The notes under the pieces are model-generated. The model saw nothing but the letters and a program-made list of their open reading frames with translations. It searched no databases and had not been told where the DNA came from. Below are positions 2,528-62,485 of a stretch of DNA of 64,000 bases, piece by piece. The position numbers and the translations under genes are program-made. The stretch comes from Polytrichum commune (taxonomy: Eukaryota; Streptophyta; Polytrichopsida; Polytrichales; Polytrichaceae), in the NCBI GenBank assembly GCA_950295325.1, contig OX485803.1, positions 15,376,001-15,440,000 on the forward strand. Direction: 5' to 3'. Numbering within the stretch: the stretch's first letter is position 1; each line of letters opens with the position of its first letter.

Positions 2528-2613
2528 TGTTGGCTCTGTCTGTAGGACAGAGACTATGCATCAACTTCTTTGTTGGCTTTGTCTGTAGGACAAAGACTAT
2601 GCATCAACTTCTT
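2528..2613 (+). repeat. Tandem duplication of a 43-bp unit
   Basis: Two adjacent 43-bp units, 2528-2570 and 2571-2613, differ at one or two bases. Each contains a short palindrome of the form CTCTGTC-N5-GACAGAG, or CTTTGTC-N5-GACAAAG in the second copy. The difference in the two stems is compensatory, so both copies can still form the hairpin. Confidence 0.85.
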
Positions 2614-2615
2614 CG

Positions 2616-2717
2616 TTTCAAGAGCAAATTTCCTAACCACTTTGCGTTCACACTTGGACGTTACTTGTTCTTGTTATTTTTAGTCCACTTTATTTAATGT
2701 GGATGTTAACTATAGTG

Positions 2718-2755
<38 letters not shown>

Positions 2756-3373
2756 GCTCCCTAAAATGTATTGAAAGAAATCTAGTTAACTATAGTTATT
2801 TCGGCAGTTCTTGATTATTTATTTTAGAAATTTCGGGTGATAAATGAGTAGCTTCAATCCTTGACTTGCATTTGAGAAGAAGGTGCACAAAATCCAAAAA
2901 AGGTTTGGTATAGTAAAGTGGATAGCTACAATTGTAGTCTTTCATAGTAAAGGACAAAGCCTCACGGTTCTACCGTTTCTTGTTTCAAGAGCAAATTTTC
3001 TAACCACTTTGTGTTCACACTTGGACGTTACTTGTTCTTGTTATTTTTGGTCCACTGTATTTAATGTGGATGTTATCTATAGTTTATATATATATATATA
3101 TATACATACATACAAGTGCTCCCTAAAATGCATTGAAAGAAATCTAGTTGACTATAGTTATTTTGGCAGTTCTTGATTATATTTTAAAAAAACATTGGGT
3201 GATAAATGAGTAGCTTCAATCCTTGACCCGTATTTGAGAAGAAGGTGCACAAAATCCAAGAAAGGTTTGGTATAGTGAATAGCCATGGGTTGGCATGAGC
3301 AAAGTAACCAGCTACAATTGTAGTCTTTCATAGCAAAGGACAGAGCTTCACGGTTCTATCGTTTTCTTGTTTA
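2616..3373 (+). repeat. Tandem duplication of about 370 bp with a TA microsatellite
   Basis: The segment from about 2616 to 2980 is repeated from about 2981 to 3373. Shared blocks include the stretches around TAACCACTTTG, TTGGACGTTACTTGTTC and AAGGTGCACAAAATCCAA. Each copy contains a TA run (2719-2752 in the first, near 3084-3102 in the second) at the same relative position, so the microsatellite predates the duplication. The second copy has an extra insertion near 3290. No coding potential. Confidence 0.8.
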
Positions 3374-3459
3374 AGAACTTCAAGATCTTTATGATGTGGG
3401 TAGCGTACATATGTATATCCAAAAAACCAACACTCAACCTTAAGCTCTAATAAGTGTCT

Positions 3460-20284: not shown

Positions 20285-23158
20285 CTAACTGGCACCACCA
20301 GGATCACCAATGAGTCCAAGAAAGTCGTCCTTGATTGTGCCTATACAGAACTGCACAAACGAGACGTCTGGATTAGAAGTGTGGTTCTTTACATCATCAA
20401 GAAACCTTGTAGATTCAGGTCAAATAAAAACAAAAGGTTCTTGGCCACATAAGCTTCGACTAGGCATCCAAGAGAGAAGGACTAACTACAGTATATAGTT
20501 ATATAATCACACCAGCTCATCAAGTCTACTTCCTATAATACACTTAAATGCAGATTCACATGGAAACCCAATTGTCTAAATATCAAAATTTAGCTTCTGG
20601 GTCAACTTGAATCTCTTCCCATTACAGTCCAACAAGAGAAAAGTGCAGGCACCAATAAATGTCCTCCTAGGTTGGAAAAAGGAGAAAGAACCAAGCTTAC
20701 AATTTCTGTGGCATCCACACGAGTACCCACAATTTTTAACCGCACTTCACTGTCCTTTTGTATCCTTACCTGCATATATACACATTTTCATGTCAGAAGG
20801 TACAAATGATGTAATATTTTGTTCTTTAGCGTACATCACAACAGACATCTGAAGATACAAGAAATTCATCCTGAACCTTGTAAAATCCAAGACTCTGGTC
20901 TACAGTGAGCTGATTCTCAGACAAGTAGAACCTGTTTGTAAAATATGTTGAGCACACTTGCACTCTTGTGGTGTAAAGCTCGAACCATAAAACCCACATC
21001 AAATATAGACCAGAATGTGCTCTTGACCTTACAAGTTCAAACCAGCTGCAGGGTACTGAAAGCTTAGAAAAATATGGTGAGCGTCACACCAACCATTTTG
21101 ACAACCCTACTATTTATTAACACTCTGGTGATTGAGAGAGAAATCGTACCGAGCCATCAGATGTCTCATAACTTGGCACATCCCCTGATTGGAACACCAT
21201 GTCATCTGGTATCAACTGCAAAAGGAAATCAGGAATATAATTTACAAGCTATTCTGGACTTGACCTCTCAATTACTCATAAACTAAGGCAACCTTTACAT
21301 TCCTAGAAAATGTGGTTGGCACTACAACACTAATAACTATCACCACAACAGAGCAGAGTGGCTCCAAAAAAAATTAAATCAAGAATGAGTAACAGGGCAA
21401 AATATTGTGGCTACCTACAAGTTGCAAGGGTCCTAAACCATTCCGATGCAACAGAGCATCAGTTGTTTGAAACAATTCTCCTAGTAGACTGTGGGAACAG
21501 TATTCAGAAGAAGAAAAAACACACAGCAGCAAAGATTCTGCAGTGAACAAGGGAAATAAGTATGCTCACATGATTTGATACAAAGATTTGCACTGGGCCG
21601 GCTTCAGCAAAGAAACCCATCTGCATGCATTTATTGTTTGGTATTAGAATCTTGTAAAGATTCTTAACTGAAGGCGCAATCTCCACAAGCTAATGCAACA
21701 TTTATGTGACGCAATGTGCAGGAAGAAGGTACTCATGATGTGCACCTTGTTCACCATGGTCACCACACTCTCCAGGATTTCACCTTTAAATGGCCGGAAA
21801 ACCACACATTGGTACTTCACAGGGAATGTCACAAAGCCTGTTCCATCACGAATGAGGCCCTGGCCAATGGTCTCCACGGCAGTCACTGCTACCACAAACC
21901 CATGTCTTCCACTGGACCGAACAAGTAACCAAAAATTTATGTCAATCAACTACAACAGACAGCTAGGTATTTTTACAATTGTCTTAGAAGTTTGATACTA
22001 TCCCCTACATAATGACTATCCTAAAACTCTAACCAACCCTTCTTCCTAAATTTCCAGAAATGTTCCAGAATAAATTTTGATGGTTTCCACGGCAGGCACT
22101 GCTACCACAAACACATGGCTTCCACTGGACCAAAAATTGATGCCAATCCAACTACGACAGACAGCTAAGAGCTTTTACAGAAATCTTAAAAGCTCGATAC
22201 TAACCCCCACATGATGATGACCATGGTGCCTAGAGGTTATACATACATAGTGAAGCTTGGAAAATCCTAAAACCCCAACCAACCATAATTCCTGAACTTC
22301 TAGAAATGTTCCAGAATATTGTTTGATGGTTTCCACGGCAGTCATTACTACTACCGATGCCTTCCACTAAACCGAACAAGCAACCAAAAATGGATGTCAA
22401 TCAACTACCACAGGCAGCTAAATTTTTTTACAGAAGTCTTGAGAGTTCGAGACTAGCCCCTACATGATGACCATCCTAAAACCCTAACCTACCCTGATTC
22501 TCAAATTTCCAGAAATGTTCCAGAACAAGTTCCAGAATATTTGTTTGATGGGTTCTACGGCAGTCACTGCTACCACAAACCAATGCCTTCCACCGAACCG
22601 AAAAAATAAACCAAAAAATGATGTCAATCAACTACCACAGACAGCTAAGAGATTTTACAGAAATCTCGAAAGTTAGACACTGACCCCTACATGATGGCCA
22701 TGGGCAGGTGCCAAATGTTGTGAAATGCATCCATAGTGGAAGTTCGGAAAACCTTAAAACCCTACCAACCCTAATTCCCAAATATTCAGGAGAAACATGG
22801 ATTGCTACCACAAACATATGCCTTCCACTGAACCGAACAAGTAACTGAAATTAAATGTCAATCATATACCACAGCGAAGAGCTTTTACAGAAATTCTTCG
22901 AATTTCGATACTGACCCCTACCTGATGACCATCAGCAGGTGCCAAATGCAAATACTACCATAGTGGAAGCTCGGAAAGCCTTAAAACCCTAAAAAGCCCT
23001 AATTCCCAACTTTCCAGCAGAAGAGATATACATACGACGTACCTGCAGGTTCCCTCAACGTCCTGGATGAGCTTGGCGATGAGCTTGTCGCGCAAGTGCG
23101 GTCCAAAATGTCGCGGGTGTAGCTGCATGTTGCGCTCCAAGTAGATATGGAAAAACAT
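20285..23158 (-). CDS. DNA-directed RNA polymerase II subunit RPB7, six exons, 177 aa
   Basis: RPB7 pairs with RPB4 as the stalk of Pol II in the nucleus, where it contacts nascent RNA and helps initiation. Exons, in transcript order: 23158-23043, 21911-21746, 21620-21570, 21215-21150, 20769-20701 and 20350-20285. All introns are GT-AG and the sum is 534 nt, 178 codons with stop. The first exon starts MFFHIYLERNMQLHPRHFGP, the family's conserved N-terminus. Later come GRHGFVVAVTAVETIGQG, LIRDGTGFVTFPVKYQ, MGFFAEAGPVQIFVSNH, LIPDDMVFQSGDVPS and the S1-domain end VRIQKDSEVRLKIVGTRVDA, finishing FCIGTIKDDFLGLIGDPGGA. Length matches the known plant protein to within a residue or so. Intron 1 (1131 bp) carries an unusual tandem array derived from its own 3' end and exon 2. 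Nothing suggests the gene is broken. Confidence 0.95.
22082..22960 (-). repeat. Tandem array in RPB7 intron 1 made of intron/exon-2 boundary copies
   Basis: Units of about 213-249 bp. Each carries a copy of the first 45 or so bases of exon 2 and the preceding acceptor region, followed by intron sequence. The exon-2-like segments are at 22082-22126, 22328-22369, 22551-22592 and about 22800-22829; the real one is 21867-21911. The AG before the exon-like segment is kept in the first, second and fourth copy and changed to GG in the third. The second copy has a stop after a few codons; the first stays open for about 25 codons. The array therefore contains decoy acceptors upstream of the true one. 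Confidence 0.8.
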
Positions 23159-25763: not shown

Positions 25764-26337
25764 CAATATAAGCTCATTATAACTACACATTAACACATAA
25801 GGTGTTGGTGGGTAGTCTCCAAGAAGACTGAGGGGGAAACCTAAGATCTTCGGCCCATGTAATCCCCACCTGGAATAGACAATTGGAGTGACCCACACTC
25901 ATAATTTCCACATTGATTTTTCACCTACACTTATAAGATTATTTTGTGTATCATTTTATCGTTTTAATTTTTATGGAAGAAATCGAAAGCCTTCTTCCAT
26001 TACATTCTCATAAAGTGAGTATTATGTATGAAAAAATGCATATAAATAAAAGAAAAAATTAATCCGAAACAACCTTCAGATCATCCAAAAACAAAAGTAA
26101 CTAGTGCTCTTAAGGTTCTAGCTAGTCAATATTTTACTTTTTCTAATAGTCAATTTACTTTTGCCAATATTCATTTTACTTTTTTCCAATACTTTACTTT
26201 TGAATGTTGGGATATATATATCTATAAATGTATGTGTGTATTTTCAAATTTCCTATTAAATTTCCAAGGTCATGTTATTGTTTCACAAAACATTCAAGGT
26301 GAAAATATATAAAAAACGAAGAGATTAGTGAGTCAAG
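25764..26337 (+). promoter_or_regulatory. FRO promoter and 5' leader region
   Basis: Between the inner end of the left transposon and the FRO start codon. A TATAAA box at 26223-26228 lies about 110 bases before the ATG. Upstream at about 26130-26200 the motif TTTACTTTT is repeated four times with TTTTACTTTT variants. I could not identify an iron-deficiency element with confidence. Confidence 0.5.
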
Positions 26338-28623
26338 ATGACAGTTGCAATAAATCCAAACATCATGAGAAGGATGATGAAACTTGTGATTTCCACTTTG
26401 ATGTTTGTAATATCCATGTATTTGATAATCTGGTGGTTCTTCACTCCCACAATGCTTGGTTGGAAAATCGAAACGCTTGTAACACAACACACACAAAAAT
26501 TCGGTGACATGGTCGGAGTTTACATGTTATACACGTGCCCTATTATAATTCTCGCACTTCTTGGGACATTGCATTTACATCTCACGAAGAAATCTCCGCC
26601 ATCACTGAAAACCAAGAAGAGCAGCAGTGATAAAATTATCGCTCGAGTTTCTCGCATGTGGAGAATATTGTGGACACGGCCGGTGTTTATCAACCGCGTC
26701 TTTGGGGTGATGGCCGTAGTTGATCTCATCGCAATTATAAGCACACTGGTTTTGGTGTTTTGGCTTTTCTACGCTTGGTACGTGCCCCAAGCGAAAGCCA
26801 TTGACACGGTTTCTAATACCACCGGAGTGGACAAAGTGATGGCAAAGACAACACAAGCGGGAACAATGTTGGGTCGGGTCTCGGCCGTGCTCATGTCGCT
26901 CCTTCTGCTCCCGGTGACAAGAAAGTCGCCGATTCTATGCATGTTTGGCCTCCCATTCGAGCACGCTGTGAAATATCACAAGTGGGTGGGCTACCTCCTA
27001 GTCGCAGTCATTTTAGCGCACGGCGGCTCGTTCATCGGAGTGTACGCGAAAACACACACATGGTACCGGTTGATCTCCTTCACCACGCCGCCAAACAGAT
27101 CATCGGGAGTAGTCGTGGTTCCCGGACTCGTCGCCTTACTCATCGCCATCTACATGGTGGCCACATCGCTGCCAACAATCCGGCGCCGTCATTTCAACTT
27201 TTTTTACTACTCTCACCAACTCTACATTGTGTTTTTCGTCGGCTTCGTGTACCATGTTGGGGTAAGAATGGTTGGGTATACAATGGGTCCCATTTTTCTC
27301 TTCTTCCTCGACCGGTTCATGCGGTTCTGGCAATCAAGGCAATTGATACAAGTGTCCAAGGCACGCGTGTCTTTCGACGGAATAATCGAGCTCAAGGTTC
27401 CGAGGTCCTCGACATTAATGTACGACGCCCTGAGCTTCATGTTCTTGAAGGTACCTAACGTCTCCCATCTTGAATGGCACCCGATTAGCATGGCGTCGAG
27501 CGCTCGAGATTGTGCGGGCGAAATGACCATTCACATCAAGAAAGTCACAGGCGCATCTTCCGCGAAAAACTCGTGGACATCCCGTGTCGCTGCACACGTC
27601 ACGGAGATCGCGAATACGGCCACTGAGAAAAAATGTCCATTCTCCATGCCGATCGCCGTGGAAGGTCCGTACAACGACGAATCCGAGTACTATCTTAACT
27701 ACAAGACGTTGGTGCTCGTCGCGGGCGGCATCGGAATCACACCGTTCATGGCCATCATACAAGACATTTTGCACCGATATCGCATCACAGCTCACGAAGA
27801 AAGAGTCTACCTACCGAAGAACATCGTGTTGATATGGTCGGTTCGGTCCGAAACCGAGCTCGACATCCTCCGTCAAGTTTCACCGAGTTTAATTTTCAGG
27901 GACTACGAATCGGGTGCATGTCGAATCTATGTGAAGGCGTATGTGACGCGGTTCCAAACCAACAAAGCTTACGTGGACGACAACGTGGACGACAACGTTG
28001 ACAACAACCTCGGAGGGGCGATTCATGTGATTCCCGCACCCGGTCTTGACGACAATCTAACCAACACGAGTCGCGTTCGCTCGGTCACAGGAACGGGAGA
28101 CAACTTGTGGATGTTCTGGATGATTTTGATCACAAGTTGTGCGACGGTTGCAACGTTTCAAGGCATAAATCTGGTGCCTCAAAACATTCCGAACTTCCAA
28201 TGGATCCAAGGCAGCCTCTTGTTCGTGAGCATGTTTGTGGGCATCGTGGTCGCCGGGAGCGTCGTACTTTTGTGTTGGACCGCCCATTCCAAAAGTAAGG
28301 AGAGAAAAATGATGGAAAATCATGCACATGCAGCGCGGGTTATGGGCTCATATGAAAATGAGCTTTCTAGTGTTGATGACATAGAGTGGGCTCATCCAAC
28401 TTTGTATGATATGGCCGAGGGTTATATGTTTTCACACCCCGATTTTTCAAGGGAGTTTGATCAAATTGTAAAGGATTTTGGACACGAAGATGTCGGTGTT
28501 CTAGTTTCCGGCCCGGAGGGCCTTCAACATGTTGTGGCGAAGGAATGTCAAAGGCGGTCAGGTTTGCAAGCCACTATGAAAGCCAAAATCTTTAATTATC
28601 ATTCGGTTAGTTTCTCTCTATAG
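26338..28623 (+). CDS. Ferric reduction oxidase (FRO), intronless, 761 aa
   Basis: FROs are multipass membrane flavocytochromes that pass electrons from NADPH through FAD and two b haems to Fe(III) or Cu(II) chelates on the other side of the membrane, for metal uptake. The haem-ligand histidines are visible in two helices: H214 and H228 in YHKWVGYLLVAVILAHG, and H293 and H306 in YYSHQLYIVFFVGFVYHVG. The FAD motif is HPISMAS (381-387), the NADPH nucleotide motif GGIGITPF (463-470), and the C-terminal nucleotide motif VSGPEG (723-728). Several hydrophobic segments lie in residues 15-170, 215-330 and, typical of plant FROs, two more at about 585-650. Length is slightly above the roughly 700-750 aa usual for the family. 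The frame is uninterrupted, whereas the FRO genes known from angiosperms contain several introns. The middle of the gene (about 26640-28100) is clearly GC-richer than its two ends. It sits between two inverted transposon copies. Confidence 0.95.
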   Translation: MTVAINPNIMRRMMKLVISTLMFVISMYLIIWWFFTPTMLGWKIETLVTQHTQKFGDMVGVYMLYTCPIIILALLGTLHLHLTKKSPPSLKTKKSSSDKIIARVSRMWRILWTRPVFINRVFGVMAVVDLIAIISTLVLVFWLFYAWYVPQAKAIDTVSNTTGVDKVMAKTTQAGTMLGRVSAVLMSLLLLPVTRKSPILCMFGLPFEHAVKYHKWVGYLLVAVILAHGGSFIGVYAKTHTWYRLISFTTPPNRSSGVVVVPGLVALLIAIYMVATSLPTIRRRHFNFFYYSHQLYIVFFVGFVYHVGVRMVGYTMGPIFLFFLDRFMRFWQSRQLIQVSKARVSFDGIIELKVPRSSTLMYDALSFMFLKVPNVSHLEWHPISMASSARDCAGEMTIHIKKVTGASSAKNSWTSRVAAHVTEIANTATEKKCPFSMPIAVEGPYNDESEYYLNYKTLVLVAGGIGITPFMAIIQDILHRYRITAHEERVYLPKNIVLIWSVRSETELDILRQVSPSLIFRDYESGACRIYVKAYVTRFQTNKAYVDDNVDDNVDNNLGGAIHVIPAPGLDDNLTNTSRVRSVTGTGDNLWMFWMILITSCATVATFQGINLVPQNIPNFQWIQGSLLFVSMFVGIVVAGSVVLLCWTAHSKSKERKMMENHAHAARVMGSYENELSSVDDIEWAHPTLYDMAEGYMFSHPDFSREFDQIVKDFGHEDVGVLVSGPEGLQHVVAKECQRRSGLQATMKAKIFNYHSVSFSL

Positions 28624-29573: not shown

Positions 29574-31137
29574 GGGTGCAAACATGGTAAAGTGGATGAA
29601 AAAAGTGCTCTAGTAGACTAAAACCATAACTTTTTTGGTCAAAGGCCTAAAAGTAGTAGCAAAGCGTTGTTTAAATTGGATTTCTTTTCATGATGACCTT
29701 TGTTGTTGTGTTGAATACCATAGTTTAATAGCAGGTTCGGCACAACATAATTCTAAAAATAGATACCTACAAATTTGGAATATTATTGGCATTTTTTGCC
29801 GAATATAAAATTAATTATTTTTCAAAATTGCCGAAAAGTAAGAAATTTTTACTTCTCACTAGAGTTTTACTTACAGTGTAAGCATATGTGAATTTTGAAA
29901 GAGAGAAGGTGCTCCTTTTGTAATCAAGCTCACTTACATTAGTCCACAAAGAATATGGGTTAAGAAGTAGCAAGACTCTAGGTGAGGCTTTTCAAATGTG
30001 TTGTACACAAATTTTTGGAGTCCAATTGAGCATAGAAGATGAAGTTTTATAGAATTTTGTCCAACTAACAAAAGTTGAGAAATCAATCCTTCTTCCACCT
30101 CCAACAAGTTTTGTGTCAAAATAAGTCTTTATGCAAAAGATATGGACAAAACATTGCAGCCGTGTAAAGATCAAAAAATTAAAATGCGTTCAAAACAATT
30201 TTTCAGAGCTCATTTGTGCATAGAAGATCAACTTTTTTGGAATTTTGTTGGTCTAAGAAAAGTTTAGAAATCAAGTAATCTTTCACCTCCAACAAATTTT
30301 ATTTCATTTGAAGACTCTATGAAAAAGTTATGCGTGTTATAAAAATGAAGTCTAACTCGGTGCTTCACCTCAAAGTTTACATATCCCATATGCATTGTTG
30401 AACACAACTCCACTCTACTTGCATAAAGCACAGAGCATTCTCAACTATTCACTCACGTCTTACTTGTCATTCAATGCAAGAGAGATGTAGAAGATATAAG
30501 TTTAAATAGAAAATTAAAAATAAATTCAAGATGAATTTTTAAAAATTAAAAGAGAAAATTGCCGAAAATTTGAATATAATATTTTTAGGTGCCGAACCTA
30601 CTTTTTGAACTTTAATTAATTATTCGGCTAACATGTGTCGAACCAGCTATGTATCTACGGTATTCAAATGTAGAAAATCAAGTTGAGATCTTCAATACTT
30701 ATCATTAAACTCAAAAGCAAATGATTGAGTCTTGTTTTGGACATAGATTTCATGACCTTAACTATTTTAAAGTTGGAGTTTTTTTTCATGTTCCTTGAAT
30801 TCATTATCTACTTGAGGGCATCATCACAAAACTTTGTGGAAAACCATCAATTTAATGTAATTTTATCGTGCTTTAAACAAATTTTAGACAACCATTTGTT
30901 CAATATCACCTACTTGCACACCACTTGTACCGTCTTCTAAAATATGTAGACTTTCCTTGGAATTTTTTTTTTCATCATAATTTGCTTGGCTTTGTAGATC
31001 AATACGTTTTAAAAATGTCTAATGATTTTTTTCTTCACAAAATACAAAGTTAATGTATAGTTTTGAATCACTTTCACTGAACACTAGGCAAGGATCAGGA
31101 GTTGTCCACTTTACCGTGCTTGCACCTATACACTATT
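29574..31137. mobile_element. Possible 1.56-kb TIR element P
   Basis: GGTGCAAACATGGTAAAGTGGA at the left is matched in reverse complement at 31116-31137 (TCCACTTTACCGTGCTTGCACC), about 19 of 22 positions. The inner sequences do not match further. Element Q lies inside. The short TIR and lack of a target duplication keep confidence low. Confidence 0.4.
29711..30667. mobile_element. TIR element Q (957 bp) with internal duplication
   Basis: TTGAATACCATAG...GGTTCGGCACA at the left pairs with TGTGTCGAACC...CTACGGTATTCAA at the right, about 38 bases with several mismatches. Inside, a block of about 140 bases at about 30015-30150 (CATAGAAGATGAA, GAATTTTGT, CCTCCAACAAG) is repeated in diverged form at about 30200-30340. 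No transposase frame. Confidence 0.6.
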
Positions 31138-40129: not shown

Positions 40130-41640
40130 CGGCACATTGAAGGTACGGGAGCTGCCACAATAACGACAAAATGCGAGGCCCAACCGTAAGTACTGTGGCC
40201 GCCGGAAGTGGTGGCATCATCAATACTTGTATTCCGTGCTCATGGGAACAACTTGGGAACAATGTGGGAACAAAACGCATTCTAAAAAGGTATGTGGCTT
40301 TATTGTGAGCACTTCCGAATCCCGTAACGTGTTTTAACCATTGCATCGGTTCATGAATTGTTTCATCCAATCAGCAATTGTGAATCGCGCAGATTGTCAT
40401 TTCAAGTTTCATAATTGGAGGTCATATACAACTTGGGAGTTGGCACAACAATGAGAATCAACCACCATGGGCGCTGGGAAAGTGGTGGCATCATTGATAC
40501 TTCTATTACGTGCGTGTGGGAATAATTGGGGAACAATTGGGGAACAAAAATCATTCTAAAGGTACGTGGCTCTATTGTGAGCACTTCCGAATTCAGTGTC
40601 GTTCTTAACCATTGCATCGGTTCATTTATTGTTTCATCCAGTTAACAATTGTGAATTGCGTAGATTGTCATTTCAAGTTTCATGATTGGAGGTCATATAC
40701 AACTTGGGAGTTGGCACAACAATGAGAATCAACCACCATGTGCGCCGGGAAAGTGGTGGCATCATTGATAGTTGTATTACGTGCTTGTGGGAACAACTTG
40801 GGAACAAAAAACATTCTAAAGGTATGTGGCTCTATTGTGAGCACTTCCGAATTCAGTAATGTTCTTAGCCATTGCATCGGTTCATGAATTGTTTCATCCA
40901 GTCGACAATTGTGAATCACGCAGATTGTCATTTCAAGTTTCATAATTGGAGGTCATATACAACTTGGGAGTTGGCACAACAATGAGAATCAACCACCGTG
41001 GGCGCCGGGAAAGTGGTGGCATCATCGATACTTGTATTACGTGCGTGTGGGAACAACTTGGGAACAACTGAGGGAACAAAAAGCATTCTAAAGGTATGTG
41101 GCTCTATTGTGAGCACTTCCGAATTCAGTAGCGTTCTTAGCCATTGCATCGGTTCATGAATTGTTTCATCCAGTCGACAATTGTGAATCACGCAGATTGT
41201 CATTTCAAGTTTCATAATTGGAGGTCATATACAACTTGGGAGTTGGCACAACAATGAGAATCAACCACCACGGGCGCCGGGAAAGTGGTGGCATCATCGA
41301 TAGTTGTATTACGTGCGTGTGGGAACAACTTGGGAACAAATTCATTCTAAGGTATGTGGCCCTACTGTGGGCACTTCCAAATCCAATATCGTTGTTAACC
41401 ATTGGATCAATTCATGAATTTTTTTTTCATATGGTTGATGGTTATGAATCGTGAAGATTGTCATTTCAAGTTTCACAGTTGGAGGTCATATACAAGTTGG
41501 GAGTTGGAACAATAGTGACAACTGTGAGGCCCAACCATAAGTATCAACCGTCACAATTGCTGGAAACGGTGGCATCGTCAATGTTTGTAATATGTGCTTA
41601 TGGGAATAACTTGGGAATGAACGTATCCTAAGGTTAGATA
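40130..41640 (+). repeat. Satellite-like tandem array, about six units of 260-271 bp
   Basis: Landmark TTCAAGTTTCA recurs at 40401, 40672, 40932, 41203 and 41464, giving spacings of 271, 260, 271 and 261. A diverged half-unit lies before (from about 40130) and another after (to about 41640). Long and short units alternate because an 11-base AACTTGGGAACA-type sub-repeat is duplicated in some units. Each unit can be read as a minus-strand frame (KLEMTICVIHNC, MQWLRT), which is a by-product of the repetition rather than evidence for a gene. Confidence 0.85.
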
Positions 41641-61734: not shown

Positions 61735-62485
61735 AGCGACCCATGAATCTCAAATAAGAAGTAGCTAATCTAACACAAGCAATTAGACACACTGGATTCT
61801 TACACACAAGTGGCTGATTTAACACAAGCAATGAGACACACTGGATTCATCGACACAGGAAACTGGACTCGTAGACACAAGAAACTCGAAACACTGGATT
61901 CTTGCACACAAGTAGCTGATCTAACACAAGCAACTAGCTAGACACACTGGATTCATAGACAGGAAACTGGACACATAGACACAAGAGACTCGAAACACTG
62001 GATTCTTACACACATAAGCAGTTAGACACACTGGATTCATAGACACAACCAACTAGACACGTTGGATTCATTCACACAAGTACCTGATCTAAGACAAGCA
62101 ATTAGACACACTGGATTCACACTCACAAGCAACTAGACAACTGGATTCATACACACAAGTAGCTGATTTTACACAAGCAATTAGACACACTGGATTCATA
62201 CACACAAGTAGCCGGTCTAACACAAGCAACTAGACACACTGGATTCATACACACAAGTAGCTGATCTTACCCAAGCAATTAGACACACTGGATTCATAGA
62301 CAGAAGTAACTGGACATACTGGACATACTGGACTCATGATACACACAATTAAGTGGACACACTGGATTCATTCACACAAATAGCTGAATTTCTAACACAA
62401 GAACTGAAATACACTGGATTCATACACACAAGTAGCTGAATTTCTAACACAAGCAATTAGACACACTGGATTCGTAACACTAAGA
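61735..62485 (+). repeat. Minisatellite, unit about 49 bp, about 15 irregular copies
   Basis: The core TTAGACACACTGGATTCATA recurs about 15 times (GGATTC near 61794, 61843, 61896, 61950, 62000, 62034, 62062, 62112, 62142, 62190, 62240, 62289, 62366, 62418 and 62470). Between cores stand CACACAAGTAGCTGAT and TAACACAAGCAA modules, some deleted or swapped, which gives spacings from about 28 to 77. No coding sense. Confidence 0.85.

Follow-up and report, generated by a model that had tools for sequence, protein, structure and literature searches.

The window, i.e., the whole stretch of 64,000 nt analyzed here, is part of a 408-Mb assembly of 64 contigs. It contains, on the minus strand between positions 23158 and 20285, a six-exon gene for the RNA polymerase II subunit RPB7, with a predicted product of 177 aa. 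The exon borders were picked by reading frame, GT-AG splice sites and homology to RPB7. With the first 133 of the 177 aa as query, the best matches in PDB were RPB7 chains (E down to 2.7e-47), and subunit 7 chains of Pol V and Pol IV scored more weakly (E of 1.6e-14 and 2.7e-14, respectively). Intron 1 has a length of 1131 nt, and introns 2 to 5 measure 125, 354, 380 and 350 nt. The parts of the gene are as follows.

23158-23043 (-), coding part of exon 1 (MFFHIYLERN...EGTC plus 2 nt, phase 2), matching RPB7 chains in PDB
23042-21912 (-), intron 1, 1131 nt, donor CAG/GTACGT, acceptor GGTCCAG/TGG
21911-21746 (-), true exon 2 (SGRHGFVVAV...VTMVNK)
21620-21570 (-), exon 3
21215-21150 (-), exon 4
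20769-20701 (-), exon 5
20350-20285 (-), exon 6

One further RPB7-like gene was present among the assembly matches reported; it is diverged (44% identity over residues 1-107) and lies at C7:23574959-23575288 on the minus strand. The match over residues 1-107 is a single open frame that runs uninterrupted through the position of intron 1, and the first 101 residues score similarly against Pol V subunit 7 and RPB7 chains. This gene was considered as a second RPB7 copy with a simpler intron 1, and was rejected as such on both of these grounds; it perhaps encodes a subunit of Pol IV or Pol V. Because it has no intron at that place, and because Pol V and RPB7 cannot be told apart by these scores, the gene is of no use for dating the structure described below.

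Intron 1 consists mostly of five diverged tandem units, which start at 23009 and run into the true exon 2; their boundaries are placed to within tens of nucleotides.

23009-22782 (-), unit U1, decoy exon-2 head at 22827, AG kept, head truncated
22781-22505 (-), unit U2, decoy head at 22592, AG lost (GG), 45-nt head of full length
22504-22297 (-), unit U3, decoy head at 22366, AG kept, 4-nt deletion in the head
22296-22050 (-), unit U4, decoy head at 22124, AG kept
22049-21867 (-), unit U5, the real 3' end of intron 1 plus the first 45 nt of exon 2

A sequence-only reading had proposed that four tandem copies of the head of exon 2 lie upstream of the true exon and that three of them keep the AG acceptor. 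Both statements were confirmed, with copies at 22827, 22592, 22366 and 22124 and an AG in all except that at 22592, which has GG. The positions which that reading gave for the three AG-bearing sites (22829, 22369 and 22126) mark the right sites but are off by 2-3 nt, and its range of 213-249 bp for the steps is correct at the lower end and slightly wide at the upper, as the head starts, including the true one at 21911, are spaced by 235, 226, 242 and 213 nt. The repeat does contain the acceptor and the exon head as claimed, but the unit is larger, each one comprising approximately 140-190 nt of intron tail in addition to at least 45 nt of exon 2. Along the unit there follow a box, GATTGACAT, which we take to be branch-point-like, a T-rich tract, the acceptor position and the exon-2 head. 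Compared with U5, the tract of U4 is shorter by 12 nt, and the presumed branch A of U4 has become G. In gapped alignments, the units are pairwise 73-83% identical, with the figures for U1 slightly low due to misalignment of its first block. The copied exon-2 head is clear over 45 nt and homology past position +45 of exon 2 is weak, with shuffle p values of 0.01 (U2), 0.08 (U3) and 0.038 (U4).

The copies were compared with chance expectation by ungapped scoring of the 45-nt head. Matches of 41/45 at 22124 and 40/45 at 22592 exceed 26, the highest score among 200 dinucleotide-shuffled versions of intron 1; elsewhere in the window, the best scores were 25 and 24 on the two strands. The two damaged copies scored 30/45 (at 22370, for the copy at 22366) and 25/45 (at 22827), the latter no better than the shuffles; since both carry deletions, their identification rests on the gapped alignment and on membership in a five-member repeat family that spans the acceptor and the exon head. 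Self-BLAST matches between units reached E values down to 3.7e-65. Tandem Repeats Finder by itself reported only U1-U2 (1.9 copies, period of 231 bp, 22568-23009). The copies are arranged head to tail and each holds both intron tail and exon head, as in an internal tandem duplication across an intron-exon boundary.

Neither a 251-nt unit nor the whole intron was found to match elsewhere in the 408-Mb assembly, where the matches reported are lower bounds; a dispersed repeat or transposon was rejected on this basis. All assembly matches reported lie at the RPB7 locus, indicating that the source is the gene itself rather than a dispersed element. An assembly artefact was also rejected, as the 17-27% divergence between units makes it unlikely. 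Maximum likelihood distances between units of 0.19-0.35 substitutions per site indicate that the array is not recent.

The structure very probably reflects passive growth of intron 1 by serial tandem duplication across the intron-exon boundary, followed by decay of the copies. We infer that an intron of approximately 215 nt, the distance from the donor to the first copied acceptor, would have been enlarged to 1131 nt by several tandem duplications, through either unequal crossing-over or replication slippage, and that the duplicated unit would have crossed the boundary between intron 1 and exon 2, carrying intron tail together with at least 45 nt of exon 2. A deletion of approximately 45-50 bp with the same flanks is common to U3 and U5 and absent from U4, and U2+U3 match U4+U5 as a block (462 columns, 77%), which together make it likely that at least one step was either the duplication of a two-unit block or a gene conversion. 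The unit tree sets U1 and U2 apart and pairs U4 with U5, at bootstraps of only 70 and 56. The pairing of U4 with U5 conflicts with the deletion common to U3 and U5, so that no single order of duplications emerges. The rest of exon 2 follows only the last copy, so that only splicing from 23042 to 21911 yields an RPB7 of conserved sequence. The upstream copies would have become intron and would mostly be decaying freely. We infer that this junction to 21911 is the one chosen for RPB7 and that the decoys would probably see some low-level use as unproductive acceptors, as noise.

The state of the exon heads was compared directly. Relative to the true head, five codons are changed in the U2 copy (three silently, two with a different amino acid) and four in the U4 copy (one silently, three with a different amino acid). 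A hand-made consensus of the head copies, with one ambiguous position omitted, differs from the true exon at positions 7 and 40, both silent. Although the numbers are small, this pattern fits a last copy that would be under protein constraint and other heads that would be decaying freely.

According to the sequence-only reading, the spliceosome must skip the decoys in this gene, and this was borne out, as acceptor-like copies have to be bypassed for RPB7 to be made. Acceptors were ranked with a hand-made, uncalibrated score that considers T content, the base before the AG, a branch-like motif and the absence of a close upstream AG. By this crude score, which was applied to 74 AGs for intron 1, the true acceptor comes only 4th, after 22844, 22827 and 22366, and by the same measure the true acceptors of introns 2 to 5 rank 1, 1, 2 and 2. 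The decoys at 22827 and 22366 score only slightly above the true acceptor, and the decoy at 22124 is lower (11th of 81 in a separate scoring round). The site at 22844, a TTTCAG 17 nt before the decoy at 22827, belongs to U1 and is absent at that place in the other units; it scores as high as 22827 under the crude scheme and could be used in place of that decoy, with a change of frame.

As the alternative, the same reading had suggested that truncated transcripts from the decoys could tune the level of RPB7. In this scenario, the copies would compete with the true acceptor and send part of the RPB7 pre-mRNA to nonsense-mediated decay. Consistent with this, an AG is present in three copies, the copy at 22827 differs from the true acceptor at only one of the last 17 intron bases, and use of a decoy with read-through would run into a premature stop for each of the four copies (65, 36, 5 or 26 codons past the junction with exon 1). 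By contrast, retention of the AG is no higher than that of the unit in general. In the shared region, with gaps counted as loss, the copies retained the dinucleotide of U5 in 360 of 576 comparisons, and 88 of 144 dinucleotides were retained by at least three of the four copies, so that an AG in three of four is ordinary. Likewise, the acceptor region as a whole was not found to be conserved above the rest of the unit in the five-unit alignment; among ungapped columns, 9/30 were variable in the acceptor module, 26/63 in the preceding shared intron (Fisher p of 0.36) and 11/24 in the exon head beyond the module, and among the decoys alone the module and the intron had 9/30 and 21/63 variable ungapped columns (p of 0.82).

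Two core patches within the unit are nevertheless conserved above its average. In the branch-like box, 8 of 9 columns are invariant, a level reached by 4 of 143 alignment windows, and the one changed column of the box is the presumed branch A, in U4. The exon start GTGGAAG is invariant in all 7 columns, which is reached by 2 of 145 windows. A joint score of 15/16 for both patches, which were chosen after inspection of the alignment, was obtained at the true placement only (1 of 151 circular shifts); when U5 was left out, the joint score was reached by 2 of 151 shifts, the true placement included. We regard the two patches as a hint rather than as evidence of function. The AG is lost at 22592, U4 retains neither the presumed branch A nor the full tract (12 nt fewer), and the exon heads are decaying. 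The proposed tuning of RPB7 thus did not gain firm support, and a ladder of competing decoys that adjusts RPB7 level through decay appears quite unlikely. A related possibility is that the array acts as a brake of variable copy number, where each added unit would supply one more early acceptor diverting RPB7 transcripts to decay. We consider this very improbable; if it were true, the output of this essential subunit would be set by the length of the array and by the kinetics of splicing, and the latter in turn depend on Pol II.

Another explanation is gain of an exon or intron, with a copy spliced in as a small extra exon through a new donor inside the unit, as in the potato gene discussed below. 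Cryptic exons were assembled from each of the three AG-bearing decoys and any GT 10-400 nt downstream, with a length divisible by three, and joined to 21911; among 39 such combinations, 9 keep the frame open, and a donor-like site, CAG/GTAGGG, is present at 22921. However, all nine in-frame donors match just 3-5 of the 9 consensus positions, the site at 22921 lies upstream of every decoy acceptor, and an insertion would hit the join between EGTC and SGRHGF, which is conserved in RPB7 chains. Judging from these features, exon gain would be extremely improbable. The early stops after the decoys and the weakness of the in-frame donors together indicate that decoy splicing would mostly be unproductive.

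In plants, telomere-like boxes are active in promoters and 5' regions. The array could also be seen as multiplying such a box, AAACCCTA, close to where the gene starts, and would then enhance expression at the DNA level or through the intron, with the copies of the splice site merely carried along. Exact copies of AAACCCTA were found in three units:

22984-22991, exact AAACCCTA box in U1
22757-22764, exact AAACCCTA box in U2
22479-22486, exact AAACCCTA box in U3

These represent 3 of the 9 exact sites in the whole window, where 2.6 would be expected and none of 100 shuffles reached 9. The exact box is, however, absent from U4 and U5, and a motif present in one ancestral unit would be copied regardless of any function, leaving the enhancer explanation highly doubtful.

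Tandem arrays with periods of this order occur commonly in the genome, which also speaks for passive growth of the intron. Arrays were called wherever a shift of 100-600 bp gave a match amounting to 60% or more of the shift. Under this rule, 6 arrays were found in 5 of 20 evenly spaced 10-kb segments of contig C1, with periods of 187-355 bp and more than three copies in one array. The same rule applied to six 10-kb pieces of the window gave 4 arrays, including that in RPB7 intron 1, which has the most copies (about 5) among them. Other repeats observed in the window are a tandem array at 40192-41512 (period of approximately 274 bp, approximately 4.8 copies, approximately 88% identity), a complex short-period array at 61759-62484 with many self-matches at shifts of 48-671 bp, and two-copy tandem duplications at 2609-3376 (period of 368-386 bp) and 29991-30332 (period of 188 bp). 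The window also contains a 763-codon open frame, counted from stop to stop, on the plus strand at 26332-28623, which presumably encodes a membrane protein of the ferric reductase/NADPH oxidase type.

Neither an RPB7 intron array nor a serial array of decoy acceptors was found in the literature, as covered by titles and abstract openings among the matches listed, where subscription papers are scarcely represented. The closest parallel is a potato RdRp gene, PGSC0003DMG402000361, in which a tandem duplication across the boundary of intron 1 and exon 2 made a new intron, backed by 106 RNA-seq reads (Ma, Lan and Niu 2016, PMC4974935). According to that paper, the duplicated segment reaches from the 3' part of intron 1 into the 5' part of exon 2, and the branch site, pyrimidine tract and acceptor were all copied, as in the RPB7 array. 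The potato gene, however, has two copies with ten nucleotide differences and a new intron seen by RNA-seq, whereas RPB7 has four extra copies that are diverged, and its sequence gives no sign of a new exon or intron. Two other cases are described in PMC4974935 from earlier work. A multi-copy duplication in fission yeast likewise places several tandem copies within one intron, but its unit is short and exonic rather than an intron-exon junction. In Arabidopsis TOUCH3, introns were multiplied by internal duplication; this is also a plant gene with repeated internal duplication involving an intron, although the copied segment in TOUCH3 was a whole intron flanked by exon on either side, leading to more introns. 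Compared with these cases, the RPB7 array represents a mutation of the potato type that was repeated several times, diverged and was apparently absorbed into one longer intron.

Because the rest of the exon follows only the last acceptor, the array in RPB7 offers a natural test of how the spliceosome gets past a series of similar early acceptors to the correct one. Dominance of the true junction would indicate that acceptor choice here depends on exon sequence or on the downstream donor and not on the acceptor alone; otherwise, the array documents the growth of an intron in a conserved gene.
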